Shown here piece after piece: positions 14,081 to 54,678 of a DNA stretch of 64,000 nucleotides (its first letter is position 1; every line of letters starts with the position of its first letter). Source of the stretch: Onthophagus taurus (Eukaryota > Arthropoda > Insecta > Coleoptera > Scarabaeidae); NCBI RefSeq assembly GCF_036711975.1, contig NC_091973.1, positions 6,386,001 through 6,450,000 on the forward strand, read 5' to 3'. Made by a program: the position numbers and the translations under genes. The notes under the pieces are model-generated. The model searched no databases, was not told where the DNA came from, and worked only from the letters and a program-made list of their open reading frames with translations.

Positions 14081-14655
14081 TATTGTCTTATTACTATTTA
14101 TTATAATTTTAATGTAACATCACTTCTAACGTAAAGTACAAGTTTATTTTAAATAATTAAAAATTTGATGATGTTGAAATTTAAAAATGAACGTTTTTAT
14201 GTATATACGGATGTTCCAAAAATTGTTTTTTTTATTGTAATCTAATTTTTGTTTATGTTGTTTATAAAATGAAGTCACCAAAAAAAAAAATGAAAATATT
14301 AATAAATAAACTTAAAAAAAAGGTGTATAATAATTATAATAAAAAGTCTTTGTAATTATAATTAATTAAATTGTTTGTTTCTTAAAAGAAATAAAAATTG
14401 TTATAACAAAACGAAATTTTGATTTAATCTTGAAATCGTTATGGTATTAGTATAATTATATTAGTGTAAAAAGGGGTTATTTTCAAAGGACCTATTTTTA
14501 AAAAAATCATAATGAGATAGGATTTTTTTATCTTAATACTTAATGAGTGTGTGATTCGACACGTCCCCGTTTTGTTTAATATTAATTTGTCAACAAATGG
14601 AAGCAAGTGTGTGTGAATAGTAGAATTTTTTGAGTCATCAAATGTTAGAGCTTTT
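14081..14655. other. Intergenic AT-rich DNA before CK2 alpha
   Basis: Between the MITE cluster and the CK2 alpha leader. AT-rich with no repeats or frames I can support. Confidence 0.4.
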
Positions 14656-15012
14656 GCTTATTTGGCAGGCAGTCGGTCGGTGGAACGGAAGCGCGTCGGG
14701 TTGAGGAGGTTAGAAAGAAATCGCGTTAATTTCCGGAACGTTAAACGTAAGTTAAAAAAATCGTAGTGAAAATATTCGAAAGAAAATTTAAAATAAATTC
14801 GAAGAAACGGTCAACGAATCCAACGTAGCTAAAAATAAATACATATCGGAACTTGTTCCTTTAGTCGATAAAGTAGATACCTCGTTGAAGTGTAAAGTGA
14901 CAACCCTGGACCGTACTGTTAAAAAATATTATTAAAAAAAAAATTAAAAGGAAGCATTTTAAAATAAAAGTAAAAGTGATAAAGAATCTTTTTCGATTTG
15001 ATTTAAAAATAA
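14656..15012 (+). promoter_or_regulatory. Probable CK2 alpha 5' leader region
   Basis: GC content rises at about 14665-14740 (cggtcggtggaacggaagcg), as expected for a leader or promoter. Good splice donors occur at 14745 (GTAAGT) and 15013 (GTAAGT). The first could end a short leader exon, the second a longer one. The start of transcription cannot be fixed from sequence. Confidence 0.4.
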
Positions 15013-15772
15013 AGGTAAGTGGGGCTAATAATTTAAGTTTTGATTTGTGGGTTTATTGGGGAAATATATCATGGTTGTCGGTTCGATTTCGGTTCTAGTT
15101 CGGTCCTGTTCGGGCTGGCAATGCACTTTTAGAGGGGTACACGATATACTGAAACGTGTGCGCCTGGTGCTAGCCTCTTGCCCAGTCTATCGTGGCGGGA
15201 TGTTAACTTCCATCTTGGATCGCGATCGTCGTCCAGAAGCCGGCTTTCGTTAAATAAAAACGCGATCCGCGCGCACGTAAACGTTAGTTTTAGTTCAAAT
15301 GATTCGCGAGAAACGTGTTTTTTGATCGTATTTGTGAACCGCCCGAGATGAACTAGGTATGATTTTCAAAATAACGATGTAGTGTAGGCTGCAACCCATC
15401 GTTCCAAAAAGTTCTCTCTAATACGGACGAATGGCGTGTGCTCGCCTATACAGTTTAACCATTTAATAATAAAAAAAAATACAACCAAAAAAATATATAA
15501 ATAAAAATAAATCAAAAATACTGGTGCCGTTTGTTTAGTTATGCTGATTGTATGTTCTAGATTAGCTATACAGTGCCTTAAACAAGGTAACTTTTAAGCT
15601 ACAACCACCAAAATATATAACCTAAACTAACCCAACAATTTATTAATACCCCAAAAAAATGAATTAATTTCTTCTTTTTTCAGTGACGGCTGATTCCATT
15701 CGTTTAGTCAAAGCTTATGATCTGCGATTTGTGAGCAGCGCCCGTAACAGCGCCCTATTAGCTAAAGCAACT

Positions 15773-26435
<10,663 letters not shown>

Positions 26436-28022: not shown

Positions 28023-31000
28023 ATGTCAAAACCAAACGAACCGAATGTGAGCACGCGCGGAAGGACGCTGATTTTGAAAAGCATTTCGTTATTTCTCTCC
28101 GGTCGTAATGCTAGATCAAACTCGCAACAACCCAAGCCGGTTAAAACCAAGAAAATGAATGATAAAGATAGCAAAAACAAAATTTCACCTAAGCTTCTCG
28201 AAATTGCTAAAAAAGAAACTCATTTTACCAGGTAATACTATTTAATTGAAAAAAATTTTTTTGATTTCAATTTTTTTAAGATTGGAGATTGAAAATCTTT
28301 ATAAAGTCTATCGAAGATTAATTTCAATGAATCGGCCGAAAACTCATCAAGACAAAAACGTCGCTGCAACATCTTCAATTGGAAAAACTACATCTGAAGT
28401 AAAAAAATTTTTTTTAAATATTATTAAATAATAAAATTTTATTTCAAGGGAATCGACCGAGTGATTTTTCGCGAACTCTTACACAGCTCTTTCGACATAG
28501 TAACCGAAGATATGATGATGGACCGCATCTTTTGCGTTTGGGATAAAACCAATTCAGGTTTAATAACACCGGAATCCTGGTTTTTGGGGTTAAATATATT
28601 CCTTCGTGGCACTCTCGCCGAACAAACCGATTTTTGCTTCTTCGTTTACGACTTAAACGCCGACGGATTTATTACTAAGGACGAAATGTTTCAATTATTA
28701 AAGTAAATATACTTTATATATACAGCCTGATTCAGAGTATGGGTACTACTTTCAAAATATTTGGCAGTAATATGTTTTAGGACATTCTCTACACGATGGT
28801 GATATCACATTTTGAATTGGACGAATTATTTCAAAATGGCGACTGTCAACTTTTTTTTTTTTTAAATTTTTTTTCTTTCCCCATCAAAAAGCACACATTT
28901 TAATCTAATAGTGCATGAATGTTTTACAGTCGATGTTATTTTTGTCCAAATATCAAGTAACGCTAGACACAAAAGAAACAATTAAACTTTATTTTGTAAT
29001 AAACATCTACTTATTTATTTATTTGGACAAAAATAACATCGAGTGTAAAACATTTATGCGCTACTAGATTAAAATGTTAGGTTGCTCTTTGATGAGGAAA
29101 AAATTTTGAAGAAAAACAAAATACTATCGTAAAAAGAATATTTTTAGGATCTCAATAATAAAAAAAAATTTTGGCATTCCATTTAAAAAAAAAGTTGTCA
29201 GTCGCCATTTTGAAATAATTTAATGTCCTAAAACATATTATTGCTAAATATTTTGAAAGTAGTACCCATAGTGTGGCTAAAAAAAAATAAGGCGCTTACT
29301 CTGAATCAGGCTGTATACTTAAAGTAATATATAGTAAAGGCAAAAAAATCCTTATAAGGGTTTGGATAAAGTGGGCAAGAGAAATAGTTGGAAATTATTT
29401 TGAAGTTCGTAATTCGCCCGCTAGGGTTAACAAAAAATTCCCGCAATCTCAAAAAGTTAGACGATGAGCTATAACTTTAACAACCATAAAATTTACTAAA
29501 TAGTAGTGAAAACCGCATCTCGATATCTCCATTCATTCTCGAATTATACAGGTCCATTTAACGTGAGACAAGCGATTATCTCGAAAATGGTTCATTTTTA
29601 TGTAAAATGAAAGTTGTTCTGTACGAAGGAGGAAACATTTCTTGACCTTGACCTTGTTTTCAAGGTCATATGAAGGTCACGACCAATTTTTTAAATGGCA
29701 CCCTATATATTTTATTGTAAAATCTGAATCTGTGGATAAAAGTAAAGTAATAAAAAAAAAATTTATGTAAATGTTTTTGGTTTGAAGCCAAATTGATGAT
29801 TCATTCGTGTGGAAAGAGATGATTAGAAATATAAAAGTTATACATCTTAATAATAAATTCATGAACCTTTCCATCCAACTGTCTCAACATCTTCTTATTG
29901 ATATTATCATAACCAGACGCGGCGCTACCGGCACTTTTAAAAATATAAATTTGAAATACATTGAAAAGAATTATTTATGCTTTAAAAAAAGAAAAAAACA
30001 CTTAAATAGAATTTAGAGTACTAATTATTGTTTACATTCGAAAAATACAAATTTTAAATAAATTGTTGTATTTTCACACAAAGTAATGGTATTTATGTTT
30101 TTCAATATTGTGCTTTTGTAATTTCCGTTAATGCGGACCTGAACAAATCACGCCGAAGTTTGGGGTTCGTCAACTACCTGTTTACAACCCCGTCTTTGTT
30201 CGTTAAATGACTGCAATTAAGTCATAATAACCACCAGAAAAATCGGAGACTATATTTAGTCTTCTAAAAGCAGTATCTAGTCTTCTGCCAAAGTTATGTA
30301 TGTTTTCTCCAAAATATTTTATCTTTCTTTTGCAGTATTTAAACCTGTCCGCAGTAGCTAGTCTTCAGAAAGCAGTATTTAGTCTCCACAAAGCAATTTT
30401 AGTCTTTAGAAAGCAGTATTTAGTGTTCCAGACGCTGTATTTAGACCTGTCGGAAGTATCTAGTCTTCAGAAAGCAGTATTTAGCCTTCTAGAAACAGTA
30501 TCTAGTCTTCTACCAAAGTTATGTATGTTTTCTCCAAAATATTTTATCTTTCATTTGCAGTATTTAGACCTGTTGGTAGTATCTAGTCTTCAGAAAGCAG
30601 TATTTAGTCTCCACAAAGCAATTTTAGTCTTTAGAAACCAGTATTTAGTGTTCCAGACGCTGTATTTAGACCTGTCGGAAGTATCTAGTCTTCAGAAAGC
30701 AGTATTTAGTCTTCTAGAAGCAGTATCTAGTCTTCTGCCAAAGTTATGTATGATTTCTCCAAAATATTTTATCTTTCTTTTGCAGTAATTAGACCTGTTA
30801 GCAGTATGTAGTCTTCAGAAAGCAGTATTTAGTCTTCACAAAGCAATTTTAGTCTTTAGAAAGCAGTATTTAGTGTTCCAGATACTGTATTTCGACCTGT
30901 CGGAAGTATCTAGTCTTCAGAAAGCAGTATTTAACCTTCTAGACACAGTATCTAGTCTTCTGCCAAAGTTATGTATGTTTTCTCCAAAATATTTTATCTT

Positions 31001-33704
31001 TCATTTGCAGTATTTAGACCTGTTGGTAGTATCTAGTCTTCAGAAAGCAGTATTTAGTCTCCACAAAGCAATTTTAGTCTTTAGACACCAGTATTTAGTG
31101 TTCCAGACGCTGTATTTAGACCTGTCGGAAGTATCTAGTCTTCAGAAAGCAGTATTTAGCCTTCTAGACACAGTATCTAGTCTTCTGCCAAAGTTATGTA
31201 TGTTTTCTCCAAAATATTTTATCTTTCTTTTGCAGTATTTAAACCTGTCAGCAGTAGCTAGTCTTCAGAAAGCAGTATTTAGTCTCCACAAAGCAATTTT
31301 AGTCTTTAGAAACCAGTATTTAGTGTTCCAGACGCTGTATTTAGACCTGTCGGAAGTATCTAGTCTTCAGAAAGCAGTATTTAGCCTTCTAGAAGCAGTA
31401 TCTAGTCTTCTGCCAAAGTTATGTATGTTTTCTCCAAAATATTTTATCTTTCTTTTGCAGTATTTAGACCTGTTAGCAGTAGCTAGTCTTCAGAAAGCAG
31501 TATTTAGTCTCCACAAAGCAATTTTAGTCTTTAGAAACCAGTATTTAGTGTTCCAGACGCTGTATTTAGACTTGTCGGAAGTATCTAGTCTTCAGAAAGC
31601 AGTATTTAGCCTTCTAGAAACAGTATCTAGTCTTCTACCAAAGTTATGTATGTTTTCTCCAAAATATTTTATCTTTCTTTTGCAGTATTTAAACCTGTCA
31701 GCAGTAGCTAGTCTTCAGAAAGCAGTATTTAGTCTCCACAAAGCAATTTTAGTCTTTAGAAAGCAATATTTAGTTTTTTAGAAGCAGTATCTAGTCTTCT
31801 GCCAACGTTATTTATGTTCTGTTCTTGATACTGACAGCAACTTCTTTCTGGGTGTCTATCATCATGTTTTTGGGAGCCTCTTATTATCTATACGGATCTT
31901 GTACCACCCGGTACCTCATTTCTCCAGCTGTTACTTTGCTTTTGTGCTTATCCTGCATTGGCATAGTTTCCGTATTGGTGATTTCCTGTCCTGTGCAATA
32001 ACCAGACAAGTCCATTGGATTCTTGTTCATATTCTTCGCATTCTTTTATTGAACACATAAGTATTGCCATGAAAAATCATGTTTGGTTTATAATAAATTT
32101 TTGAACAGTAATTTCAGACTTGTGGACTTTGAACAATGTAATTCCTAATATGTATAGGGGTTGTCATCCATATTGGTGATAATGTTAAAATAAAAAAGAA
32201 AAACCAAAATAAATGGTCAAACTACTCCAATATATTTTCCAATATATTTTTTTATTTTTAGTTAATCTAATTAACTCGAGTTAATTAATAAAGGAAAATA
32301 TATTGGAGTAGTTTGACCATTTATTTTGGTTTTTCTTTTTTAATGTAATTCCTGTTTTTTGCTGAAGTCTAGTTTATAACTATTGCAATTTCAGACTTTT
32401 TCTTGCAAATTAACCTTCTGACCAGAGTATTCCCGACTATTCCCTTAAGTTTGGTTTTTCACCAGTATAATTCTTAAATTTTTGCTGAAGTATGGATTAT
32501 GACTATTCCAGTCTTTTGCGTTTTCCGGCGCTTCATTTGCTAGCGCCGGCACTGATCATAACCGGGTGCAGAGATTTTACCCTTTGATATTACTTCCAAG
32601 TATTTAGTTGGCTTCCACTGCATTATGTTGAAAACCATCATACCTCCACCTCTTGAAGTTTGTCATAGTCAAAGCCTGCATCAAAAAGTCAAAATATTTT
32701 TGTAAATATTCAGCATGTATTCGGGCTATGTCTTCTTCTGAAGTTTGAAGAGTATTGGAAATGACTTCTGTTGTAATTAGATAGCTTTTTAATTTGTTCT
32801 GTTTTGTCATATTTTCGCTGGTTATTGGTTTTTCTTGATTATCCACTTATGATAAAAGATTTGATCATAATACCGGTTATAAATAATACCGATCATAATC
32901 GGTATCTGTAAAATAATGTATTGGAGAAAACAATCTTAAAAACACTTATAGAGAAAAATGTCATATTCGGCATCATATTCGAAACATTGAAAATAAATCA
33001 TCATACGCTTCTGAGTTAGTAAATGACATGTTTACAGTTAGCATGCTCCCCAAATATTATGGATTTATTTTCACGCGTTCAAATTATATAGGGTGTGCTC
33101 GTGAATTATTTCCAACAGTGGTTTCGCAGAAAATCGCGGATTATTCGAAAACAACCTGGTGGATTTCAACGCGGTTTTTACCAAAATATATTAAATAATG
33201 TCGGTTGTCGGATTCCGTTATTAATTTTTTAATATTAGTGCTCCCTAATTTTTTAAGAGCGATTTAATGAAATTACGAATTAAAGAGAAACAAAAATAAG
33301 CTATGCGGGGTGAGGAATGGGATGGTGCGTTCCAGACAGTACGTCGCGCCTTTATCTTACCTACATAAAGAAATGAGGCGCGACGTCCAAATAATTTCTA
33401 ACTATTTCTCTTAACCACTTTGCTTATAAGGATTTTTTTAATTAATTAATTTTTTTTTTAATATATTTTTTTTTATTATAGAAATTGTTTGATAAAACAA
33501 CCACAAGATGAAGACCCCGATGAAGGTGTTAAAGATTTAGTTGAGATTATTTTAAGAAAATTGGATAAAGATAAAGACGGAAAAGTTTCTTTGGACGATT
33601 ATAGAACTTCGGTGAAAGAAGAACCGCTCCTTTTAGAAGCTTTTGGTAGATGTTTACCGAATGAAAGAGCCACCGATACTTTTATAACAACAATGAAAAT
33701 GTAA
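28023..33704 (+). CDS. CLXN: Calaxin (EF-hand protein EFCAB1), axonemal calcium sensor
   Basis: A neuronal-calcium-sensor-like protein that binds outer-arm dynein and tunes ciliary or sperm-flagellar beating with calcium. Exons: 28023-28231, 28281-28398, 28449-28702, 33482-33704. Phases agree, giving 267 residues (human 211). Matches to human calaxin: the GIDRVIFRELL region, DMMMDRIF, LFLRG-like FLRGTLAEQ, DLNADGFITKDEMFQLLK, KQPQDEDPDEGVKDLVE and LLLEAFGRCLP. EF-hand 1 (DKTNSGLITPES) is degenerate. EF-hands 2 (DLNADGFITKDE) and 3 (DKDKDGKVSLDD) have good loops. About 50 basic N-terminal residues precede the part aligning with the human start. The ATG follows a possible acceptor (AG at 28021), so a leader exon may exist. 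The last intron (4.8 kb) is transposon-filled. Confidence 0.92.
28721..29315. mobile_element. Palindromic MITE, TACAGCCTGATTCAGAGTA ends
   Basis: Left end TACAGCCTGATTCAGAGTA and right end TACTCTGAATCAGGCTGTA are exact complements, with mirrored inner arms (cctaaaacatattattgc against gcagtaatatgttttagg). TA-flanked. Inserted just after calaxin exon 3. Confidence 0.88.
30255..31810. repeat. 225-bp tandem repeat, about seven copies
   Basis: The landmark ATGTATGTTTTCTCC (one copy has a single change) lies at 30296, 30521, 30746, 30971, 31196, 31421 and 31646, exactly 225 bp apart. Within the unit there are shorter subrepeats built on agtcttcagaaagcagtatt. Since 225 is a multiple of three and one frame of the unit has no stop, long open frames (30300-30788 and 30873-31781) arise. 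I regard them as incidental. Confidence 0.93.
32191..32342. repeat. 152-bp hairpin
   Basis: Arms of about 55-60 bp: accaaaataaatggtcaaac and actccaatatattttcc on the left are mirrored by ggaaaatatattggagt and gtttgaccatttattttggt on the right. The loop is AT-rich with an inner ttaattaactcgagttaatt-type palindrome. Possibly a MITE nested in the 29341-33440 element. Confidence 0.75.
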
Positions 33705-33992: not shown

Positions 33993-35811
33993 ATGCCTAC
34001 AAATAATCAAAACCAAAAGTGAGTAGTTATTTTTATTTAGTAATTAAGCTGTTGGCCTTGAGAGCTTATAAATTTTTTTTAAGTAATCAAAATGGTCCAA
34101 CTGCAATGCAAACGTTACAAGTTTTTCTCGAATTTTTCTGGGTGTTGATCCAATTGACTTATTTTAATATCGAAGCGATCGTGAGATGGTTTGTTCCGCC
34201 ACCGAAAAAATCAGTTAACGGTGAAATTGTTTTGGTAAGAAAATACATCTTTTCTTAGTTCTATGACTTGCTCCTTTTCGTTCATCTCGGTGTCAGATCG
34301 TATCTCTCGACGGTTCAACTCTCGTTGTTAAGATAAGATTATTTTTATTTCTCTCGTTTTGTATTTTTTTTTCTTTCCTGATAACAAAATTTACTAAGTC
34401 ATTTCGATGAGACCTCATAAGAAAATTAAATTAGTAACCACGTTTTGTTATCAAACAACCTTCATCGTTTGTTTCGTTTTTGGTTGCACGAATAGCACTT
34501 CCTACTTCGATTACACGTGCTATAATTACCACTGGAATTATTTTCTAAATATGTTGTATCCATTAAATAGTAATTAACATTTTTTTTTTTAATTTACTCA
34601 AATGAATCACTTTTTATCAATTATTTAGGTCAACAATTTTTGGTATCTTAAATATTTACAGAAAAAAAGTTGTGTTATCAAACAAAAGTATTTTTTGTTA
34701 CATACATGTAGATTACTTTATCATTTTGTATATATAAATAGGTAACTGGCGCTGGTCATGGTATAGGAAAAGAATTTGCGATGCAATACGCCGCATTAGG
34801 TGCAACCGTCATCGCTTGGGACGTAAATGAACAAAACAACTTAAAAACTGTTAAAGAAATCAATCGGTTGGGTTACCCAAAAGCCTATAGCTACGTATGC
34901 GATGTTTCTAATCGCGAAAAAGTTTTTGAGACCGTCGAAAAGGTTCGAAAAGATGTTGGGGACATCACAATTATTGTCAACAATGCTGGAATTATGCCCA
35001 CGCACTCTTTACTTGAGCACACTCAAAAAGAAATTGAAGCTATTTTTGATATAAATGTTTTAGGACATTTTTGGGTATACAATTTTTTTGATTTTTTAAT
35101 TGGCAACCAAACGTGATATAAAAACACTAATATTAGTCACAAAGCTGGAAGGTTAAATCCCTCATTATTGAATTAATTTCACGTTTGATTGCTGAAAATA
35201 GCAAAAACACTTAGTTTTTATCAAATCGTATGTTTTAATAACATTAATTATTTTTTAATAAAAATAGATAATTCAAGCAATTATGCCAAGTATGTTAAAA
35301 AGGAATCATGGTCACATTGTATCGATATCATCGTGTGCTGGATTGAGTGGTTTAGAAAATTTAGTACCATATTGTGCTAGTAAATTCGCAGTTCGAGGTT
35401 ATATGGAAGCGTTGCGAATGGAGCTGGAATTAATCCCGAATTGCCAGGTCAAATTGACGACGATTTATCCGTATATGGTCGATACAGGATTGTGTAAAAA
35501 GCCGATAATTCGATTTGCAGAAGCTATGACGATGCTGACGCCTTACGAAGTAGCCGCAACAGCTATAGACGGTCAAATGAGAGGTGTGCGTCACGTTTCT
35601 GTACCCAGATTGTATTGGTACATGAACAATTATTTTAGGTAATAAAAAAAAATTTGCGATGATTACAGTAATTTTCTGCTCGTGTATACTTTTTTATTTA
35701 GTTTGTAAAAATAATTTTAATTACTTTATTTTTTTTAGAATGAATGCCGAGAAAGGTATGAAAGCCATGAAGGAATTTTTAGGGGTCAGCTTAGGATCGG
35801 ATTTATCCTAA
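33993..35811 (+). CDS. Membrane-anchored short-chain dehydrogenase (SDR16C5/RDHE2-like)
   Basis: An NAD(P)(H)-dependent short-chain dehydrogenase/reductase close to the epidermal retinol dehydrogenase 2 and 17-beta-HSD 11/13 group; the substrate is probably a retinoid, steroid or lipid alcohol. Exons: 33993-34018, 34084-34234, 34742-35074, 35268-35638, 35739-35811; all in phase, 317 residues. Seen: a hydrophobic N-terminal segment (about residues 20-40), then VRWFVPPPKKSVNGEIVLVT; cofactor motif TGAGHGIG; NNAG; the SISS serine; and the catalytic YCASK. The C-terminus is short and polar. The N-terminal helix suggests ER or lipid-droplet attachment. The first intron is only 65 bp. Its last exon and 3' flank are duplicated at 38801-38998. 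Confidence 0.9.
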
Positions 35812-35988
35812 ATGAATACTTTTTATATCATAAAAATGAAGTAGAAATTTTGTACGAACCTTTGTAATAATAAAATCTTAGACAAAACTACGAGTTTTTT
35901 TGCATAACTTGTTTGGTGTTACCTCATACTGAATGAATTGATCGTTAAATCAAAATTGCTCCTCATAAAAGTCATTTATGAGTATTTA

Positions 35989-36042
35989 ATGACGATTTCA
36001 AAGTAAAAACTACTGATAAATTGCTTAATACGGATTTTCCAC
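35989..36042 (-). pseudogene. ECSIT coding fragment beside S3 array 1
   Basis: About 50 bp (gacgatttcaaagtaaaaac, then ...cttaatacgga) match ECSIT exon 3 at 42517-42568 (gacgacttcaaagtaaaaac ... cttaatacgga) with a few changes. It lies between the dehydrogenase 3' flank and the start of the S3 array, about 6.5 kb from the real gene. Confidence 0.8.
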
Positions 36043-36059
36043 CACTTATCCACTGCGCA

Positions 36060-38795
36060 CCATTTTTTAAAACTATTAATTTTTTAATTTCCCTGTGAAC
36101 AGTATAGAAATGGAATTTAAGATTACTTTTCTAATTATTGGTTGTATCAAAATATTTTTCAAATAAAACTTGTTAAAAATTAAGAAAGGAACAACGTTTA
36201 TTGGCACAATTTTTTAAAATTATCAATTTTGTAATTTCCCTGTGAACAGTATAGAAATGTAATTTAAGATTATCTTCCTAATTATTGGTTGTATCAAAAT
36301 ATTTTTCAAATAAAACTTGTTAAGAATTAAACAAGGAACAACGTTTGTAGGAACCATTTTTTAAAATTATTAATTTTTTAATTTCCCTGTGAATAGTATA
36401 GAAACGTAATTTAAGATTATCTTCCTAATTATTGGTTGTATCAAAATATTTTTCAAATAAAACTTGTTAAGAATTAAACAAGGAACAACGTTTGTTGGAA
36501 TCATTTTTTAAAATTATTAATTTTTTAATTTCCCTGTGAATAGTATAGAAATGTAATTTAAGATTATCTTTCTAATTATTGTTTGTATCAAAATATTTTT
36601 CAAATAAAATTTGTTAAGAATTAAACAAGGAACAACTTTTGTAGGCACCATTTTTTAAAATTATTAATTTTTTAATTTTCCTGTGAACAGTATAGAAATG
36701 TAATTTAAGATTATTTTCCTAATTATTGGTTGTATCAAAATATTTTTCAAATAAAACTTGTTAAGAATTAAACAAGGAACAACGTTTGTTGGAACCATTT
36801 TTTAAAATTATTAATTTTTTAATTTCCCTGTGAATAGTATAGAAATGTAATTTAAGATTATCTTAGTAATTATTGGTTGTATCAAAATATTTTTCAAATA
36901 AAACTTGTTAAGAATTACACAAGGAACAACGTTTGTTGGAACCATTTTTTAAAATTATTAATTTTTTAATTTTCCTGTGAGCAGTATAGAAATGTAATTT
37001 AAGATTATCTTCCTAATTATTAGTTGTATCAAAATATTTTTTAAATAAAACTTGTTAAGAATTAAACAAGGAACAACGTTTGTTGGAACCATTTTTTAAA
37101 ATTATTAATTTTTTAATTTTCCTGTGAATAGTATAGAAATGTAATTTAAGATTATCTTCCTAATTATTGGTTGTATCAAAATATTTTTCAAACAAAACTT
37201 GTTAAGAATTAAACAAGGAACAACGTTAGTTGGAACCATTTTTAAAAATTATTAATTTTTTAATTTCCCTGTGAACAGTATAGAAATGTAATTTAAGATT
37301 ATTTTTCTAATTATTGGTTGAATCAAAATATTTTTCAAATAAAACTTGTTAAAAATTAAGAAAGGAACAACGTTTATTGGCACAATTTTTTAAAATTATC
37401 AATTTTGTAATTTCGCTATGAACAGTATAGAAATGTAATTTAAGATTATCTTCCTAATTATTGCTTGTATCAAAATATTTTTCAAATAAAACTTGTTAAG
37501 AATTAAACAAGGAACAACGTTTGTAGGAACCATTTTTTAAAATTATTAATTTTTTAATTTCCCTGTGAACAGTATAGAAATGTAATTTAAGATTATCTTC
37601 CTAATTATTGGTTGTATCAAAATATTTTTTAAATAAAACTTGTTAAGAATTAAACAAGGAACAACGTTTGTTGGAATTTTTTTTTAAAATTATTAATTTT
37701 TTAATTTCCCTGTGAACAGTATAGAAATGTAATTTAAGATTATCTTCCTGATTATTGCTTGTATCAAAATATTTTTCAAATAAAACTTGTTAAGAATTAA
37801 ACAAGGAACAACTTTTGTAGGCATCATTTTTTAAAATTCTTAATTTTTTAATTTCCCTGTGAACAGTATAGAAATGTAATTTAAGATTATTTTTCTAATT
37901 ATTGGTTGAATCAAAATATTTTTCAAATAAAACTTGTTAAAAATTAAGAAAGGAACAACGTTTATTGGCACAATTTTTTAAAATTATCAATTTTGTAATT
38001 TCGCTATGAACAGTATAGAAATGTAATTTAAGATTATCTTCCTAATTATTGCTTGTATCAAAATATTTTTCAAATAAAACTTGTTAAAAATTAAGAAAGG
38101 AACAACGTTTATTGGCACAATTTTTTAAAATTATCAATTTTGTAATTTCGCTATGAACAGTATAGAAATGTAATTTAAGATTATCTTCCTAATTATTGGT
38201 TGTATCAAAATATTTTTTAAATAAAACTTGTTAAGAATTAAACAAGGAACAACGTTTGTTGGAACCATTTTTTAAAATTATTAATTTTTTAATTTCCCTG
38301 TGAACAGTATAGAAATGTAATTTAAGATTATCTTCCTAATTATTAGTTGTATCAAAATATTTTTCAAATAAAACTTGTTAAGAATTAAACAAGGAACAAC
38401 GTTTGTTGGAACCACTTTTTAAAATTATTAATTTTTTAATTTCCCTGTGAATAGTATAGAAATGTAATTTAAGATTATCTTCCTAATTATTGGTTGTATC
38501 AAAATATTTTTCAAATAAAACTTGTTAAGAATTAAACAAGGAACAACGTTTGTTGGAACCATTTTTTAAAATTATTAATTTTTTAATTTCCCTGTGAACA
38601 GTATAGAAATGTAATTTAAGATTATCTTCCTAATTATTGGTTGTATCAAAATATTTTTCAAATAAAACTTGTTAAGAATTAAACAAGGAACAACGTTTAT
38701 TGGCACAATTTTTTAAAATTATCAATTTTTTAATTTCCCTGTCAACAATATAGAAATGGAATTTAAGATTATCTTTCTAATTATTCTAATTATTA
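36060..38795. repeat. S3 satellite array 1 (about 147-bp unit, about 18 copies)
   Basis: Head-to-tail units containing ttccctgtgaacagtataga, taatttaagattatcttcct, ttggttgtatcaaaatattt and gaattaaacaaggaacaacg. Spacing is 147-148 bp (for example taagaatt at 36321, 36468 and 36615). Very AT-rich with no GC core. It lies between two copies of the dehydrogenase tail. Confidence 0.95.
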
Positions 38796-38800
38796 TTAAC

Positions 38801-38998
38801 TATGAAAGCCATGAAGGAATTTTTAGGGGTCAGCTTAGGATCGGATTTATCCTAAATTAATACTTTTTATACCATAAAAATAAAGTAATAATAAAAAATC
38901 AGACAAAACTACGAATTTTTTGCATAACATGTTTGCTGTTACCTCAAACTGAATGAATTGATCGTTAAATCAAAATTGCTCCTCATAAAAGTCATTTA
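38801..38998 (+). pseudogene. Duplicate of dehydrogenase last-exon tail and 3' flank
   Basis: Starts TATGAAAGCCATGAAGGAAT and continues through the stop codon into the 3' flank, matching 35757-35978 closely. The copy lacks about 20 bp of flank (around aaattttgtacgaacc). It sits on the far side of S3 array 1, so the array lies between direct repeats of about 200 bp. Confidence 0.92.
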
Positions 38999-39391
38999 AT
39001 AATATTGTTAATGATTTACTCGTTATTTTAAACGATTGTAAGTGTTACTATATTTAGAATATCAACAATATCGAAAGGTCAAATATTAAACAAACAGATA
39101 TTGACCTAAAATATCATTTATTAAATATATCATAAACGTTTAGCGCCATCTTTGAGGAGTTTAATAAAAGAAAAAAGGAATCTACATCAAAATTTTATTG
39201 TAAGATGATTATGGCATAAAATAAGAAGGAAATATTAAAGTTGTGTGCGTGAGAAGAAAAGAGGAATATGTTGCCATAGTTACCGCGCAAGTTGGTTTTA
39301 TAGTTAGCTTCATCTAAAACATCGTTTAAAACCTAACCTTAAATATAAGAATTATATTAAAAGTATTGTTTTAGTTTAAATAATTATTGAA
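38999..39391. other. Upstream region of Morgue
   Basis: No repeats after the dehydrogenase copy ends. It probably holds the Morgue promoter and leader; no motif can be claimed. Confidence 0.35.
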
Positions 39392-40711: not shown

Positions 40712-40773
40712 TGTTTAAGAAAATAATGAATTAACAAATAACTGTGTTTTATTTTATATTATTTAACCAACGC

Positions 40774-40894
40774 GCTTTTTGATATTTTTATTTCTTATTA
40801 TTAACAATTATTTGTTGTATTATGTAAGTGTTATTAAATTAAAATTTTTTTTAAAGAAGAAATACTTTTATTCACAATTAAATCAACAATTATT
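40774..40894. repeat. Left copy of a duplicated intergenic segment
   Basis: Contains atttttatttcttattatta and tatgtaagtgttattaaatt, and matches 42325-42450, which leads directly into the ECSIT 3' end. The two copies flank S3 array 2 as direct repeats. Confidence 0.88.
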
Positions 40895-42318
40895 ATTCCC
40901 TGTGAACAGTATAGAAATGGAATTTAAGATTATCTTCCTAATTATTGGTTATATCAAAATATTTTTCAAATAGAACTTGTTAAGAATTAAACAAGGAACA
41001 ACTTTTGTAGGCACCATTTTTTAAAATTATTAATTTTTTAATTTTCCTGTGAACAATATAGAAATGGAATTCAAGATTATCTTTCTAATTATTGGTTGTA
41101 TCCAAATATTTTTCAAATAAAACTTGTTAAGAATTAAACAAGGAACAACGTTTATTGGCACAATTTTTTAAAATTATCAATTTTTTAATTTCCCTGTGAA
41201 CAGTATAGAAATTTAATTTAAGATTATTTTCCTAATTATTGTTTGTATCAAAATATTTTTCAAATAAAACTTGTTAAGAATTAAACAAGGAACAACGTTT
41301 ATTGGCACAATTTTTTAAAATTATCAATTTTTTAATTTTCCTGTGAGCAGTACAAAAATTGAATTTACGATTATCTTCCTAATTATTGGTTGTATCAAAA
41401 TTTTTTTCAAATAAAACTTGTTAAGAATTAAACAAGGAACAACGTTTGTTGGAACCATTTTTTAAAATTATTAATTTTTTAATTTCCCTGTGAACAGTAT
41501 AGAAATGTAATTTAAGATTATCTTCCTAATTATTGGTTGTATCAAAATATTTTTCAAATAAAACTTGTTAAGAATTAAACAAGGAACAACTTTTGTAGGC
41601 ACCATTTTTGAAAATTATCAATTTTTTAATTTCCCTCTGAATAGTATAGAAATTAAATTCTAGGTTATCTTCCTAATTATTGTTTGTATCCAAATATTTT
41701 TCAAATAAAACTTGTTAAGAATTAAACAAGGAACAACTTTTGTAGGCATCATTTTTTAAAATTATTAATTTTTTAATTTCCCTGTGAACAGTACAGAAAT
41801 GGAATTTAAGATTATCTTCCTAATTGTTGGTTGTATCAAAATATTTTTCAAATAAAATTGGTTAAGAATTAAAAAAGGAACAACTTTTGTAGGCATCCTT
41901 TTTTAATTTCCCTGTGGACAATAGTTAACCGGCAGATTATCTTTCTAATTATTGTTTGTATCAAAATATTTTTCAAATCAAATTTGTTAAGAATTAAACA
42001 AGGAACAACTTTTGTAGGCACCATTTTTTAAAATTATTAATTTTTTAATTTCCCTGTGAACAGTATAGAAATGAAATTTAAGGTTATTTTCCTAATTAGT
42101 GGTTGCATCAAAATATTTTTCAAATAAAACTTGTTAAGAATTAAACAAGGAACAACTTTTGTAGGCACCATTTTTTAAAATTATTAATTTTTTAATTTCC
42201 CTGTGAACAGTATAGAAATGGAATTTAAGATTATCTTTCTAATTATTAGTTGTATCAAAATATTTTTTAAATAAAATTTGTTAAGAATAAGCAAGGAACA
42301 ACTTTTGGAGGCATATTT
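40895..42318. repeat. S3 satellite array 2 (about 9-10 copies)
   Basis: Same ~147-bp unit as array 1 and in the same orientation. One unit near 41890-41945 is truncated (ttccctgtggacaatagtt). Lies between Morgue and the 3' end of ECSIT. Confidence 0.93.
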
Positions 42319-42324
42319 TTCAAT

Positions 42325-42450
42325 TTGCGTTTTTTAATATTTTTATTTCTTATTATTAACAATTACTTGTTATATTATGTAAGTGTTATTAAATTAAATT
42401 TTTTTTAAAGAAGAAATACTTTTTTTTTATTGACAACAAAATCAACAATG
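42325..42450. repeat. Right copy of the duplicated intergenic segment
   Basis: Matches 40774-40894 and adjoins the ECSIT stop codon, so this is likely the original and the left copy the duplicate. Confidence 0.85.
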
Positions 42451-42458
42451 TCAATTTA

Positions 42459-43735
42459 TTATCGCTCATCAATTTCCGGATTTAAACCAGCAGATTCGAC
42501 AGTGAGTTCCTTTCCAGACGACTTCAAAGTAAAAACTACAGATAAAGTACTTAATACGGAATTTCCATCCTTTTCCAAATGTCGAATCCAAGATAACAAA
42601 GAATCCTTACTTGACGTTCCCGTCGCGCATAACGCAAAAATTGTGGCGTCGTTTTGTTCGTGTATGCTGGGAATATTCGCGAGGCTTTTCATTTTTGGAG
42701 GAGTAAAGTTGAAGAAGCTTACATCGATTTTACTTACATCTAAAATTCAATTAATATTAATAGGTTATTATAATGATATTTTTTTGTCATTTACCATCAG
42801 AAAGATCTTCAGTTTCTTCAGGAAAAATTTTTGGGTTTGCTCTTAACATAAAATAATTAACTGATTTCGTCCTTAACCAGACTCTATAAGGTCCTTCAAC
42901 ATAAATGGGTTCTTTTACATTGTGTTGTCTTAAAAGATCTTGTTGGATAGGGCTTTGAGCACTTACTATCCACGTATCCTCAATTGAATCAGCAATATCT
43001 GAACTCTAATACATAATTAATTTTTTTACATAATGTGTTTTAATTACTTACTTGATATATTGTTAATTTTGTTTGAACATCAACACTACTTATTCTAGCT
43101 ATTGCTAATTGTGCTAGTTCAAAAGCATCATTAGGTGGGGGATTTGGTACAGGCCAAGGAGACAGATTTTTAAATTTTGGCATCCAATACATCATTCTCC
43201 AATATTTTCTTAATGGAATACCTCTTTTTCCAAAGATGTTTAGAAGCATGGACTCCATTTCCACGTCAGGTAAGACTCCATTATCTTCCATTTGCTCTAA
43301 CAAATCAACAACACATTGTTGTTGTTTTGGATAATGCATAAACTCTGCTTGAAATATATTTTGGGGTATAAATTTTCCTTTAGGTAAAACATCAACAATC
43401 GCCTTGTATACTTCCAGATCTTTATGCACACCATATTGCTCCATATTTTTTAATGCTGAGTAAATAAATTCAACATGCCCCCTTCTATGAACATCTCTAT
43501 TTACATAAATACGAATCATATCTAAATAAGAGTTTTTTGTTTTTTCCTTTGCAGTTTCAAAACTCAATTTCTCAGTAACTTCTTTCCCTGCCCCTGATTT
43601 TTCTTTATTTTCTGTAAAACGCATCGAATTCGTATGAAAGCCCTTCATGTTGAAGGACGGTTGATTATTAAATTGATCATTTTTCGACTGTTTTATATAA
43701 AATAATAACATTCTTAATTGTCTTGTACGAAACAT
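42459..43735 (-). CDS. ECSIT: ECSIT, complex I assembly and Toll-pathway adaptor
   Basis: ECSIT works in mitochondria in complex I assembly and has been linked to Toll/TRAF6 and BMP signalling. Minus-strand exons: 43052-43735, 42795-43005, 42459-42739; in phase, 391 residues (human about 431). Exon 1 begins MFRTRQLRMLLFYIK, a basic mitochondrial-type leader without early acidic residues. Then come the helical repeat region (HVEFIYSALKNMEQYGVHKD), VVDLLEQMEDNGVLPD, NIFGKRGIPLRKY and LTIYQ. Exon 2 has EPIYVEGPYRVWLR. Exon 3 has FALCATGTSSKDSLLSWI, VVFTLKSS and SAGLNPE, which match the C-terminal domain. It converges on Morgue with S3 array 2 between. A fragment of exon 3 is copied at 35989. Confidence 0.93.
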
Positions 43736-44094
43736 GATTAATTATCGTTTAAAAAATTTTATATTGAGTTGTAATTTAGTTAAAATATAGAAATTCACAT
43801 TTTTATAGGTTAATGAACATACGACATAACCTCACTTTTTCAACGTAATGGTAATCATTGCGTTTTAACTATATAGATCCCTGCAGTCGGCAACTAATTT
43901 AGTTTTTCTTAAACATCTTGAAACGTGCATTAATTTTTCTTTATAATTATTAGCTAATTTTAAAACTATTTATAATCCAAAAAACAATTAACTAAAAATG
44001 GAAAGTTAAATTTTAATAAATCATTTATTTGCTCAATATCACAAATTGGCACTGAATCTAAAACCTTTAGACTAAATACTAAAGACTGAAATAA
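43736..44094. other. Upstream region of ECSIT
   Basis: AT-rich DNA between the ECSIT start and S3 array 3. It must hold the ECSIT promoter; no motif can be supported. Confidence 0.35.
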
Positions 44095-46548
44095 AACGTT
44101 AAGAATTAAAAAAGGAACTTTTTTTGACACCATTTTTTAAAATTATCAACTTTTTAATTTTCCTGTGCATAGTATAGAAATGAAATTCACGATTATCTTC
44201 CTAATTATTGTTTGTATCAAAATATTTTTCAAATAAAACTTGTTAAGAATTAAACAAGGAACAACGTTTGTTGGAACCATTTTTTAAAATAATCAATTTT
44301 TTAATTTCCCTGTGAATAGTACAAAAAATTAAATTCACGATTATCTTAATAATTATTGTTTGTATCAAAATATTTTTCAAATAAAACTTATTAAGAATTA
44401 AACAAGGAACAACGTTTGTAGGCAACATTTTTTAAAATAATCAATTTCTTAATTTCCCTGTGAATAGTACAAAAAATTAAATTCACGATTATCTTAATAA
44501 TTATTGTTTGTATCAAAATATTTTTCAAATAAAACTTATTAAGAATTAAACAAGGAACAACGTTTATAGGCAACATTTTTTAAAATTATCAATTTTTTAA
44601 TTTCCCTGTGAATAGTATAGAAATGAAAATTTAAGATTATCTTCCTAATTATTGTTTGTATCAAAATATTTTTCAAATAAAACTTGTTCAGAATTAAACA
44701 AGGAACAACGTTTGTAGGCACCATTTTTTCAAATTATCGATTTTTTAATTTCCCTGTGAACAGTATAGAAATTAAATTTATGATTATTTTTGTAATTATT
44801 GTTTGTATCATAATATTTTTCAAACAAAACTTGTTAAGAATTAAAAAAGGAACAACGTTTATTGGCACAATTTTTTAAAATTATCAATTTTTTAATTTCT
44901 CTGTGAACAGTATAGAAATTTAATTTATGATTATTTTTGTAATTATTGTTTGTATCAAAATATTTTTCAAACAAAACTTGTTAAGAATTAAAAAAGGAAC
45001 AACGTTTATTGGCACATTTTTTTAAAATTATCAATTTTTTAATTTCTCTGTGAACAGTATAGAAATTTAATTTAAGATTATTTTCGTAATTATTGTTTGT
45101 ATCAAAATATTTTTTAAATAAAACTTGTTAAGAATTAAACAAGGAACAACGTTTGTTGGAACCATTTTTTAAAATTATTAATTTTTTAATTTCCATGTGA
45201 ACAGTATAGAAATGTAATTTACGATTATTTTCCTAATTATTGCTTGTATCAAAATATTTTTTAAATAAAACTTGTTAAGAATTAAACAAGGAACAACGTT
45301 TATTGGCACAATTTTTTAAAATTATCAATTTTTTAATTTCCCTGTAAACAGTATAGAAATTTAATTTAAGATTATCTTCCTAATTATTGGTTGTATCAAA
45401 ATATTTCTCAAATAAAACTTGTTAAGAATTAAACAAGGAACAGCGTTTATAGGCACCATTTTTTTAAAATTGTCAATTTTTTAATTTCCCTGTGAACAGT
45501 ATAGAAATGAAAATTTAAGATTATCTTAAATTATTGTTTGTATCAAAAAATTTTTCAAATAAAACTTGTTCAGAATTAAACAAGGAACAACGTTTATAGG
45601 CACAATTTTTTCAAATGATCGATTTTTTAATTTCACTGTGAACAGTACAAAAAATGAAATTCACGATTATCTTAATAATTATTGTTTGTATCAAAATATT
45701 TTTCAAATAAAACTTGTTAAGAATTAAACAAGGAACAACGTTTATAGGCAACATTTTTTAAAATTATCAATTTTTTAATTTCCCTGTGAATAGTATAGAA
45801 ATGAAAATTTAAGATTATCTTTCTAATTATTGTTTGTATCAAAAAATTTTTCAAATAAAACTTGTTCAGAATCAAACAAGGAACAACGTTTGTAGGCACA
45901 ATTTTTTCAAATTATCGATTTTTTAATTTCCCTGTGAACAGTACAGAAAATGAAATTCACGATTATCTTAATAATTAGTGTTTGCATCAAAATATTTTTC
46001 AAATAAAACTTGTTCAGAATTAAACAAGGAACAACGTTTGTAGGCACCATTTTTTCAAATTATCGATTTTTTAATTTCCCTGTGAATAGTACAAAAAATG
46101 AAATTCACGATTATCTTAATAATTATTGTTTGTATCAAAATATTTTTCAAATAAAACTTGTTAAGAATTAAACAAGGAACAACGTTTATAGGCAAAATTT
46201 TTTTAAATTATCAATTTTTTAATTTCCCTCTGAATAGTATAGAAATTAAATTCTAGGTTATCTTCCTAATTATTGGTTGTATCAAAATATATTTCAAATA
46301 AAACTTGTTAACAATTAAAGAAGGAACAACTTTTCTTATCACCATTTTTGAAAATTATCAATTTTTTAATTTCCCTCTGAATAGTATAGAAATTAATTTC
46401 TAGGTTATCTTCCCAATTATTGTTTGTATCAAAATATTTTTCAAATAAAACTTGTTAAGAATTAAAGAAGGAACAACTTTTGTTGGCACCATTTTTTAAA
46501 ATTATCAATTTTTTAATTTCCCTGTGAACAGCATAGATTCAAGATTAT
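44095..46548. repeat. S3 satellite array 3 (about 16 copies)
   Basis: Same unit and orientation as the other S3 arrays; minus-strand open frames recur every 148 bp (44243, 44391, 44539). It contains sub-variants, for example units with gtacaaaaaattaaattcac, or with ctctgaatagtatagaaatt at the right end, and is the most diverged of the four arrays. No duplication of host DNA is seen at its edges. Confidence 0.94.
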
Positions 46549-50200: not shown

Positions 50201-52484
50201 CGAAATGCGTTACCTTTACGGTTTGGAGAATTTTGAAAAGACAACTTTTATATCATTTTTTCATTTTTTTTATTTTGCAATTATGTAGTTAACGCTTGCT
50301 TTTGTTACTTGTTCTAACGGTTTAGTAAAATGAAATTTTTATTCCAAACAATTGACCATGTTTTTCAACATAAATGTTGATTTTTCTTTTATAGCCGAGG
50401 TGTTGCAATCGACCGTTAAAGAAAAAAGCTATCGAGATACTGCCTCGCCCGCTACGCGACTTCGGCCTAATGATAAAACATTGTTATTGTTATACAACTA
50501 TTTTATATTACGACAATGAAGATGCTAGTCGCGAATTCATATGGCTGAGATTATTTATAGCCGAGGTGTTATAATCGACACCCTTAAAGAAAATGCTATC
50601 AAGGCAGTGCCTCGCCCGCTACGCGACCTCGGCTTATTAATAAAACATTATCATCTTGTTATACAACTAATTATTCTATTTTAAGATAGTGAATAAGTTG
50701 GTCATGAATTGTTATAGCTCAGATCGTTTATAGTCGAGGTGTTGCAATCAACCGTTGAAGAAAAAAGTTATCGAGGCTCTGCCTCGCCCGCTACGCGACC
50801 TCGGCTTAATGATAGAACATCGTGATCTTTGTTATACAACTATTTTATATTAAGACAACGAAAATGCTGGTTCAATTCATATGGCTGAGATTATTTATAG
50901 CCGAGGTGTTATAATCGACACCCTTAGAGAAAATGCTATCGAGGATATGCCTCGCCCGCTACGCGACCTCGGCTTATTAATAAAACATCATCATGTTATT
51001 ATACAACTAATTATTCTATTTTGAGATAATGAAGAAGTTGGTCGTGAATTATTATAGCTAAGATCCTTTATAGCCGAGGTGTTGCAGTCGACCGTTAATG
51101 AGAAAATCTATTGAGGCTGTGCCTCGCCCGCTGCGCGACCTCGGCTTAATGATAAAACGTGATATTTGTTATACATCTATTTTATATTAAGACAATGAAA
51201 TTGCTGGTCGCGAATTCATATGGCTGAGATTATTTAAAGTTGAGGTGTTATAATCGACACCCTTAAAGAAAATGCTATCGAGGATATGCCTCGCCCGCTA
51301 CGCGACCTCGGCTTATTAATAAAACATCATCATGTTATTATACAACTAATTATTCTATTTTGAGATAATGAAGAAGTTGGTCGTGAATTGTTATAGCTAA
51401 GATCCTTTATAGCCGAGGTGTTGCAATCGACTGTTAAAGAGAAAAGCTGTCGAGGCTGTGCCTCGCCCGCTACGCGACATCGGCTTAATGATAAAACGTG
51501 ATATTTGTTATACATCTATTTTATATTAACACAATGAAATTGCTGGTCGCGAATTCATATGGCTGAGATTATTTAAAGTTGAGGTGTTATAATCGACACC
51601 CTTAAAGAAAATGCTATCGAGGATATGCCTCGCCCGCTACGCGACCTCGGCTTATTAATAAAACATCATCATGTTATAATACAACTAATTATTCTATTTT
51701 GAGATAATGAAGAAGTTGGTCGTGAATTGTTGTAGCTAAGATCATTTATAGCCGAGGTGTTGCAGTCGACCCTTAATGAGAAAATCTATCGAGGCTGTGC
51801 CTCGCCCGCTGCGCGACCTCGGCTTAATGATAAAACGTGATATTTGTTATACATCTATTTTATATTAAGACAATGAAATTGCTGGTCGCGAATTCATATG
51901 GCTGAGATTACTTATAGCCAAGTTAGTAGAAAATGCTTACAAAAGCTGTTTTCTATACGATAAACGGTTTTGGAGATATTCGCAAAAAACGATTTTTTTT
52001 ATTAAATTTATGTATCTCGAAAATGCTGCATTTTAGAGAGTAAGTTGATAAAAACTTTTTTTTAAATTTTTGGACAAGCTTTCACATCCTGAAGTCCTGC
52101 TCATATATTATGAAACACCTAGTATAATAAACAAATAATTAATAATTTTTTTAATTTTTATTAGAAAAAAGTGAACCAGATTTAAAAAAAGAAAAACTAT
52201 CGAGTGAACGTATAATAATTGGCGGTGAAAATGATTCTGTGAATAATCATAATTCATCGAATGGTAGGGTTTCGAATGAATTGATGCAAAAATTTGAAGG
52301 TAAAAGTCGCGAAGATTTGATATTGATGGTTTGCGAGTTGCAAAGCGATGTGGAGCATGGCAAAAAAAAATTAAAAGATTTGGAGGATTATTTGGACGAT
52401 TTGTTGCTGAGGGTTATGGAAACTACGCCGAGGTTACTTCAAAACCCTTACATTCAATGTAAACTGACTCAGAAATTAGGTTAG
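47244..52484 (+). CDS. Rip11: Class I Rab11 family-interacting protein (Rip11-like)
   Basis: An effector that binds Rab11 on recycling endosomes and links membranes to transport and apical trafficking. Exons: 47244-47274, 47345-47489, 47559-47722, 48138-48520, 48578-48782, 48833-49015, 52165-52484; all in phase, 476 residues. Residues 1-113 form a C2 domain (MWMPTHVQVTVQKAAGLL; FVTIALGKTKFQTSV; EWFEECEL; FLGVDEFLGRVAIPL). The middle is Ser/Lys-rich and disordered (SIGQLSNVAQSVGGSL; GLKKFAKSLGSK). The C-terminal FIP-RBD coiled coil has SREDLILMVCELQ and LEDYLDDLLLRVMETTP, which matches the YID-containing Rab11-binding motif of class I FIPs. The last intron (3.1 kb) holds a TIR element with the S2 satellite. 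Confidence 0.92.
49480..50040 (-). pseudogene. Mariner-superfamily (DUF4817/DDE_3-type) transposase remnant
   Basis: Minus strand. The frame ending near 49833 reads MYYLYGMACGNSAEARRLYQ, ERHPDRRIPHHNLFLRIHQR and LWENGSFK, typical of the N-terminal HTH of insect transposase-like proteins. Farther along (49480-49750) a second frame resembles a DDE core, with VGDHLIGP-like, PELLEDVPLQVRQ and MHDGAPAHF-type sequence. The pieces are in different frames with stops between, so it is broken. Confidence 0.7.
50394..51935. repeat. S2 satellite: 339-bp dimers (166 + 173 bp) sharing the S1 core
   Basis: Unit starts (gccgaggt or gttgaggt) lie at 50394, 50560, 50733, 50900, 51073, 51239, 51412, 51578 and 51751, so steps alternate 166-167 and 173 and dimers repeat every 339-340 bp. 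The A form has gttgcaatcgaccgtt and the B form has gttataatcgacaccctt. Each ends with CCTCGCCCGC-TAC-GCGACCTCGGC (TGC in some), nearly the S1 core. The spacers do not match S1. Confidence 0.95.
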
Positions 52485-52995
52485 GAAAATGTTAATGAAA
52501 CATCACAGGTAACCAAAGTAAAAAATTAAATAAATAAAGGTTTTCTTGTTTTGTTTTAAATATGAAAATGTTTTACACGTTTTAATTATAATAAAAGTGA
52601 CTTTAATATTTATTCATCACTCAGTTATAGTATTGATATATATTTTTTTTTGATTTTGTGATTCTTAATTTTTAACATTTTCACATCTTACTAACCATAG
52701 AGATTATTTTTTGTTTTTGTTTTCTCTTTAATTAGTTAATTAACAGCGGCATCCAAACATCACATGTTCGCATATATTAATTAATTGTTTAGTGATATTA
52801 ATATATTATTATTGTGTATATTTTTGTTTTTCTTCTTTATTATGTTTTGAATTTTTTGTATTTTTGTGGTGTATTGGACTTATTACGTGTAAATGCAGAC
52901 TATAATATGAATATATTTTTTGTACTTTAAAATGGGATGATAAATAAAAAAGTTATTCTGTATTTATTTATTGATTTATTTTAATTGAAAAAAAT
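52485..52995. other. Rip11 3' UTR and flank
   Basis: AT-rich. AATAAA-like strings near 52530 and 52942 are candidate polyadenylation signals. No repeat before S3 array 4. Confidence 0.4.
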
Positions 52996-54170
52996 TTCAT
53001 TCAACTTGAGTCTTTTATTATTACTTTTCTATAAATCTTGTTAACAATTAAAGAAGGAACAACGTTTATTGGCACAATTTTTTAAAATTATCAATTTTTT
53101 AATTTCCCTGTGAACAGTATAGAAATTTAATTTAAGATTATTTTCGTAATTATTGTTTGTATCAAAATATTTTTCAAATAAAACTTGTTAAGAATTAAAC
53201 AAGGAACAACGTTTATTGGCACAATTTTTTAAAATTATCAATTTTTTAATTTCCCTGTGAACAGTATAGAAATTTAATTTAAGATCATTTTCGTAATTAT
53301 TGTTTGTATCAAAATATTTTTCAAACAAAACTTGTTAAGAATTAAACAAGGAACAACGTTTATTGGCACAATTTTTTAAAATTATCAATTTTTTAATTTC
53401 CCTGTGAACAGTATAGAAATTTAATTTAAGATTATTTTCGTAATTATTGTTTGTATCAAAATATTTTTCAAACAAAACTTGTTAAGAATTAAACAAGGAA
53501 CAACGTTTATTGGCACAATTTTTTAAAATTATCAATTTTTTAATTTCCCTGTGAACAGTATAGAAATTTAATTTAAGATTATTTTCCTAATTATTGTTTG
53601 TATCAAAATATTTTTCAAACAAAACTTGTTAAGAATTAAACAAGGAACAACGTTTATTGGCACAATTTTTTAAAATTATCAATTTTTTAATTTCCCTGTG
53701 AACAGTATAGAAATTTAATTTAAGATCATTTTCGTAATTATTGTTTATATCAAAATATTTTTCAAACAAAACTTGTTAAGAATTAAACAAGGAACAACGT
53801 TTATTGGCACAATTTTTAAAATTATCAATTTTTTAATTTCCCTGTGAACAGTATAGAAATTTAATTTAAGATTATTTTCGTAATTATTGTTTGTATCAAA
53901 ATATTTTTCAAACAAAACTTGTTAAGAATTAAACAAGGAACAACGTTTATTGGCACAATTTTTTAAAATTATCAATTTTTTAATTTCCTTGTGAACAGTA
54001 TAGAAATTTAATTTAAAATTATTTTCGTAATTATTGTTTGTATCAAAATATTTTTCAAACAAAACTTGTTAAGAATTAAACAAGGAACAACGTTTATTGG
54101 CACAATTTTTTAATTTTCCTGTGAACAAGAATCTTAACTTCATTCAACTTTAGTCTTTTATTATTACTTT
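52996..54170. repeat. S3 satellite array 4 with 33-bp flanking direct repeats
   Basis: About seven ~147-bp units (about 53030-54130), more uniform than the other arrays; most share caaacaaaacttgttaagaa and cgtttattggcacaattttt. The flanks ttcattcaacttgagtcttt (52996) and ttcattcaactttagtcttt (54138), each followed by tattattactttt, are direct copies. Confidence 0.93.
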
Positions 54171-54678
54171 TTATATAGTAGCGCCATCTCTTATCCGCGG
54201 CATTTACTAAAAGTTCGCTACAATCTAACAGATGTCGGTTTAACGTTTAATTACAAACTAACATTGTAAGATCTTTTTAAACTCGACTTATTTAATTTTT
54301 GTATGATTGATATATTCTTTTGTATATTTTTGATCTAAATAACTTAATTGAGGCTACACTTAAAACCCTTATTTCCATGTTTTATTACTTTTGATTGTTT
54401 ACTTCTTATTTTAATGTTTATGATATAAATAATGAGTTTTCCGAGTGTGGGCGAAAACGCTCGAGTAACAAAGGGGTTGAGAAGTAAAAGGGTAAGGGGA
54501 TGCTGTACGAGGACCGAGCGAGGACGAGGACAGTAGACGCCGGGACGGCGCCGGTTTCGTCCCTATCAAGCGTTGGCAGCGCCGTGAGCGAGCCTCAAGC
54601 AATAAACCCCGCCGAACATGCTCAAATACTAAACACGAATCATATCAAGCCGGATTTCACGTCGACGTCCAGTTGATC
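54171..54678. other. GPCR upstream region
   Basis: Turns GC-rich from about 54480 (cgaggaccgagcgaggacg, gccgggacggcgccgg), as expected for a promoter or leader. The receptor frame stays open upstream of its first ATG without another ATG. Confidence 0.4.

Follow-up and report, generated by a model that had tools for sequence, protein, structure and literature searches.

The satellite array A1 lies just behind a short-chain dehydrogenase gene in a stretch of 64,000 nucleotides of the Onthophagus taurus genome (assembly GCF_036711975.1, contig NC_091973.1, positions 6,386,001 to 6,450,000 of the forward strand). This stretch is referred to as the window, and positions are given in its own numbering. 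We suggest that A1 was probably seeded by local break repair that copied sequence from a neighboring array, A2, and from the ECSIT gene beside it, that the target was duplicated in the process, and that the array was then expanded. The target is present on both sides of A1, a single ECSIT filler stands at one junction, no other copies of these pieces were found in the genome, and the units of A2 show affinity to those of A1 and of another array of the window, A4. A1 and its junctions consist of the following:

36059..38785, + strand: satellite array A1 (Tandem Repeats Finder, period 147, 18.6 copies, AT-rich unit)
35757..35992, + strand: left copy of the duplicated A1 target (last coding bases of the dehydrogenase, stop, 3' flank)
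38801..39014, + strand: right copy of the duplicated A1 target
35991..36052, + strand: left-junction filler of A1, a copy of ECSIT last-exon sequence (source 42517-42577, same strand)
42517..42577, + strand: source of the filler, in the last coding exon of the - strand gene ECSIT (open reading frame of this exon 42459-42692)
38786..38800, + strand: right-junction filler of A1, 15 bp, its first 9 bases a repeat of the last 9 of the array

The direct repeat that flanks A1 was recovered in a window-wide search with an E value of 5e-73. Its two copies have the same base at 200 of 212 aligned positions and are separated by 12 mismatches and 4 indel events. The preliminary description of this DNA had reported such a repeat, which is real, although the ends it gave (35978 and 38998) are about 15 bp short. 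The gene to the left of A1 was identified as a short-chain dehydrogenase by two exon pieces matching Pfam adh_short (E 1.8e-19 and 2.4e-15). Over their first 57 bases the tail copies carry no difference, and nearly all of these bases are coding in the left copy; a function of the right tail, inferred from this identity, was dropped, as constraint on the left copy together with the few changes expected is sufficient by our estimate. When 35757-36042 was searched against the genome, three places were returned, all within the window (all 3 candidates scored), so that both the dehydrogenase tail and the ECSIT piece look unlike dispersed repeats.

The filler at the left junction is 87% identical to its source (7 mismatches and 1 gap over 62 alignment columns), with E values of 2e-15 in the window and 6e-12 genome-wide. 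The source lies 6.5 kb from the A1 junction, in a gene identified as ECSIT by the Pfam domains ECSIT_C (E 5.8e-18, last exon) and ECSIT_N (E 3e-80). An ECSIT piece at the left edge of A1 had been described before at 35989-36042, together with an order of array then ECSIT at A2 and of ECSIT piece then array at A1; we confirm both the piece, with the limits listed above, and the order. A 14-base core of the piece is absent from 36053-38790, that is, the piece is not repeated inside A1. A genome search with 42327-42577 found only its own place, the left flank of A2 and the ECSIT piece. The presence of this piece at the A1 junction shows that DNA was transferred from beside A2 into that junction.

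The kinship of the satellite units was examined in a wider sample. The A1 unit belongs to a dispersed satellite with at least 589 genome matches, those listed being on contigs C3, C8, C10 and C16. From the listed places 20 stretches were fetched, a selection that is biased to A1-like arrays by the listing and leaves out C10 and some C16 places; together with the window they hold 34 arrays of 200 bp or more. In these fetched loci, the right junction of A1 (38770-38810) had no match outside A1 at E 1e-3. The window contributes three further arrays:

40896..42320, + strand: satellite array A2, the proposed donor, with 8.4% diversity within
40772..40890, + strand: left copy of the A2 target duplication
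42327..42449, + strand: right copy of the A2 target duplication
44089..46537, + strand: satellite array A3, of the same family and orientation as A1
53033..54113, + strand: satellite array A4, 7.4 copies, with 1.3% diversity within
52993..53033, + strand: left copy of the 41-bp target duplication of A4
54136..54175, + strand: right copy of the 41-bp target duplication of A4

We aligned 390 monomers of the fetched arrays, a part of the genome's arrays only. With gaps counted, 17 of the 18 A1 monomers had their nearest or tied-nearest relative outside A1 in A2. The exception is the partial first monomer, and 3 of the 17 tie with arrays other than A2. The nearest A2 monomers are 41441 for 12 (one of them an identical copy), 41147 for 4 and 42007 for two, one of which is shared with 41441. 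All seven A4 monomers are nearest to the A2 monomer 41147, with 1 to 4 differences (gaps counted), and when gaps were ignored every monomer of A1 (18/18) and A4 (7/7) was nearest or tied-nearest to A2. The A1 monomer 38545-38691 has only one other 100% place among the genome matches listed, and this place is in A2. Since A2 is also the most diverse of the three (8.4%, against 6.0% in A1 and 1.3% in A4), it fits the role of donor.

The repair that we propose would have begun with a break or a collapsed fork just behind the dehydrogenase gene. The broken end would have been extended on ECSIT sequence for about 62 bases, would have switched to the satellite sequence of the neighboring array A2 and would have rejoined the dehydrogenase tail some 236 bases behind the exit point. 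Because synthesis returns behind the exit point, the new DNA would end up between two copies of the target. From a few seeded units the array would then have grown to 18, either through repeated switching within the array or through later unequal exchange. The path of the polymerase, the order of the steps and the amplification are the parts of this model that we infer. The nearest known system is microhomology-mediated break-induced replication, in which, according to the parts of PMC2621351 considered here, a switch behind the collapse point yields a duplication, junctions carry 2-5 bp of microhomology and short inserted sequence copied from elsewhere, and a backward switch within one molecule may set off rolling-circle amplification. 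At A1, the dehydrogenase tail is duplicated, the junction holds a piece of ECSIT sequence from 6.5 kb away, and the array shows affinity to A2. The filler and the dehydrogenase flank overlap at the left junction by two bases, GA, which fits the microhomology range and proves nothing. The known system, in the same parts of that source, concerns human copy-number change at a largely far bigger scale, whereas at A1 the insert is a satellite, the duplications in this family of arrays measure about 40-240 bp, and the 2-bp overlap is seen at one junction only.

In a variant of this repair, filler DNA would be joined at a staggered break and both overhangs filled in, which would leave almost the same scar. 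The fill-in of break ends with 3' overhangs yields small tandem duplications, as stated in the sections of PMC8355091 that were available. Template switching and filler joining cannot be separated from one genome, and we treat them as one class, namely repair with filler and duplicated ends. A comparable process is said to exist in rice, where, going by the title of a 2014 paper of Vaughn and Bennetzen, patch-mediated double-strand break repair reportedly gives insertions with tandem duplications; the insert at A1 differs from it, as judged by that title, in being a kilobase satellite array.

It had also been proposed that A1 arose through a circular DNA, that is, an extrachromosomal circle carrying A2 units and the ECSIT end, opened elsewhere and joined into the break behind the dehydrogenase gene. 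One half of this proposal stands: DNA was moved from A2/ECSIT to A1, as indicated by the ECSIT piece and the monomer affinity. The other half, that a circle was needed, is not supported, and we regard the circle as unlikely. It would account for the permuted order of array and ECSIT between A2 and A1, and short stretches at the A1 edges agree with the last monomer of A2: 36057-36120 matches 42165-42228 with 98.4% identity and one mismatch (the next best has two), and 38740-38785 matches 42202-42247 with 95.7%, tied with 41048-41093. However, longer stretches at the A1 edges are better matched by other monomers. A4 resembles a single A2 monomer multiplied, as by rolling-circle copying, and the reintegration of circles has been put forward as a route of satellite dispersal in the portion of PMC13192020 consulted. 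In common with circle-mediated dispersal, A1 combines array units and a neighboring scrap at a new site in a changed order; it differs in lacking the sequence that separates array and ECSIT, in having one ECSIT scrap only and in being flanked by a target duplication. With a circle, 42321-42516 is predicted to separate A1 from the right tail copy. Neither the genome search nor a comparison with 35600-39100 showed it there. In that comparison, the best weak match (E 6e-4) joins 42300-42349 with 37810-37855 and is mostly array edge, and a second (42351-42395 with 39003-39054, 73%, E 0.002) begins within the end of the right copy and extends beyond it, off the place predicted by the circle; both are in unmasked AT-rich DNA and are read as chance. 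Rolling-circle copying would also repeat the ECSIT piece, whereas the interior of A1 has no such repeat. Moreover, the duplicated dehydrogenase tail is outside the proposed circle, so that integration via shared sequence cannot explain the duplication and a staggered break is needed in any case. A circle might have been caught in a staggered break and trimmed afterwards, and template switching needs fewer steps than the circle.

The orientation of the arrays bears on the same question. Adjacent arrays are co-oriented in 16 of 17 pairs (two-sided p 0.0003; the pairs include stretches down to 47 bp), which speaks against the circle. This evidence is weakened because in 7 pairs the phase runs on almost without a break, as if another repeat had interrupted a single array; after their removal, 9 of 10 pairs are co-oriented (p 0.02). 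The A1-A2 pair passed the split-array filter (jump 140) but was kept, as a gene lies between the two arrays and the edges set automatically for A2 (40806-42338) reach too far beyond 40896-42320. Two arrangements are worth recording. Two opposed arrays at L043 (2330-4720 and 6889-8514) have inverted copies of a repeat of about 250 bp between them, as after a local inversion, and repeats with inverted ends stand between satellite arrays at L053:1566-3266 and L044:1889-2275, where they have apparently been inserted into one array.

Target duplication is not special to A1, since A2, A4 and two arrays outside the window (L036 and L042) have their own. Three of the four window arrays (A1, A2 and A4) lie inside duplicated target DNA, the targets are all different, and genome searches gave no additional copies of any of the three flanking sequences. 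The duplication at A2 measures 124 bp (7 mismatches in 118), and a genome search gave no third copy of it. A3 showed no flank duplication by the tests that found those of A1, A2 and A4. Genes are present, according to Pfam, on either side of both A1 and A2, the neighbors of A2 being a ubiquitin-conjugating-enzyme gene (UQ_con) on one side and ECSIT on the other. Because A2 and A4 carry similar target duplications, the process proposed for A1 would have acted repeatedly in the window. Outside the window, the duplication at L036 returned its two flanks alone in a genome search; a weak second flank match there, in altered order (76%), is unexplained. At L042, the duplication begins with 79-87 bases that match a palindromic element of dispersed occurrence, and beyond base 87 the two flanks stand alone among the 72 matches listed (best 40 of 988 candidates).

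The frequency of such duplications was compared with two controls. Among 1052 pairs of left and right flanks taken from different loci, the best score was 41, against 318 for A1. In the local-control test, 8 of 33 arrays scored 44 or more, and 7 of these had the repeat within 100 bp of both array edges. The main count sets aside the three arrays of L035, two of which are among the 7 (with them the count is 7/33). With both ends within 100 bp, duplications flank 5 of 30 arrays (A1, A2, A4, L036 and L042), compared with 8 of 3000 random local pairs (Fisher p 8e-8, a rough value for the reasons given below); for the arrays outside the window, the count is 2 of 26 and the equally rough p is 0.003. 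If the edge condition is dropped, 39 of the 3000 control pairs reach 44 or more. Two candidates were rejected. The flank repeat of L049 (171 aligned bases) is dispersed, with at least 66 matches (best 40 of 1950 candidates), and 212 bp separate it from the edge of the array. That of L035 (5623-8538) belongs to a unit of about 430-490 bp which occurs three times with 96.6-98.6% identity and with satellite arrays between, that is, to a segmental tandem duplication.

These counts also bear on three other explanations. The dehydrogenase tail might have been duplicated in tandem beforehand, and satellite DNA might later have entered the joint. Breaks give small tandem duplications, according to the part of PMC8355091 at hand, and the 8 control pairs show that array-free local repeats at such spacing exist; however, the same coincidence would be required at all five arrays, with the array at or near the joint each time, and we consider this explanation quite improbable. 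An artefact of assembly or of haplotypes at the array edges deserves mention, as the structure is known here from the assembly. Against it, the tail copies of A1 differ by the mismatches and indels given above, five arrays whose flanks differ show this structure, and what was copied is short, unlike kilobase haplotype copies, which leaves an artefact with very little probability.

In the third explanation, a mobile element carries the array, and what repeats in the flanks is either a target-site duplication of this element or its ends. Array edges at L046, L047, L050 and L053 share a dispersed sequence, and the unit may derive from an old element. However, the duplications vary in sequence and in length (about 41, 69, 124, 236 and 241 bp across the five arrays), no further copies of the A1, A2 and A4 flanks were found, and the first and last bases of the arrays, as judged by eye, fall at scattered phases of the unit, which disfavors a transposase with fixed ends. 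Transposition of A1 is thus already disfavored, and we give it scarcely any weight. The dispersed sequence itself (L047:960-1274, L046:4118-4170, L050:3518-3565 and L053:5233-5416) has at least 46 genome matches, many of them on C1, C6, C7 and C11, where no such array is among the matches listed.

Several points weigh against the repair model for A1. The overlap GA amounts to 2 bp, is confined to the left junction and would be frequent by chance, while the other two junctions of A1 are blurred by divergence and show none clearly. The ECSIT piece differs more from its source (7 mismatches in 62 columns) than the tails of A1 do from each other (12 in 212), and because of this difference in divergence the filler and the tail duplication may stem from separate events. 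The affinity of monomers to those of neighboring arrays is general, as 156 of 232 monomers in multi-array loci are nearest to the same locus, compared with 11.4 expected, and later exchange between neighboring arrays could have produced it. Pairs of opposite orientation also exist, one at L043, which was counted, and at least one on C10 near 8267 / 8278 kb, which was not. The p-values for the duplications are rough, as the 3000 control pairs overlap, come from 21 loci and give weight to the window, and as the threshold of 44 was set post hoc. Finally, 25 of the 30 arrays had no duplication in the local-control test; these may be older, shorter or of other origin.

Satellite dispersal as such is already known, and the junction record of A1 is an unusual variant of it. 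To our knowledge, the arrival of satellites in gene-rich DNA is often ascribed to circles or transposons on little junction evidence. In another beetle, Tribolium castaneum, euchromatic satellite spread was reportedly treated by Volaric et al. in 2024, and, going by the title alone, this is satellite DNA spreading in gene-rich regions, as here. The 147-bp unit was not met in the portions of PMC13192020 and PMC13081366 consulted. At A1, one locus offers a likely donor (A2/ECSIT), a recipient, a direction and a scar. As a tentative generalization, which we hold to be slightly less probable than its opposite, new euchromatic arrays in this genome may be seeded locally by replicative break repair, the young ones keeping tens to hundreds of bases of duplicated target together with scraps from the donor side. 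If this is true, the sequence reveals which array is the donor, which the recipient and in which direction the copying went, and if the scar is common in young arrays, seeding can be tested in any long-read genome through target duplications and donor-side filler.

Other repeats were noticed in the window. Two satellites with units of about 163 bp and about 339 bp (150-18275 and 50611-51823) share a GC-rich motif, CTCGCCCGC-(4-5 bases)-GACCTCGGC, which has 35 exact matches in the window and 0 in 100 shuffles. An exact 25-base telomere pattern gave no match. A 225-bp tandem array of 6.8 copies with internal repeats of about 21 bp occupies 30253-31799, and a 211-bp tandem duplication (1.9 copies, 97% matches) is found at 59630-60031.

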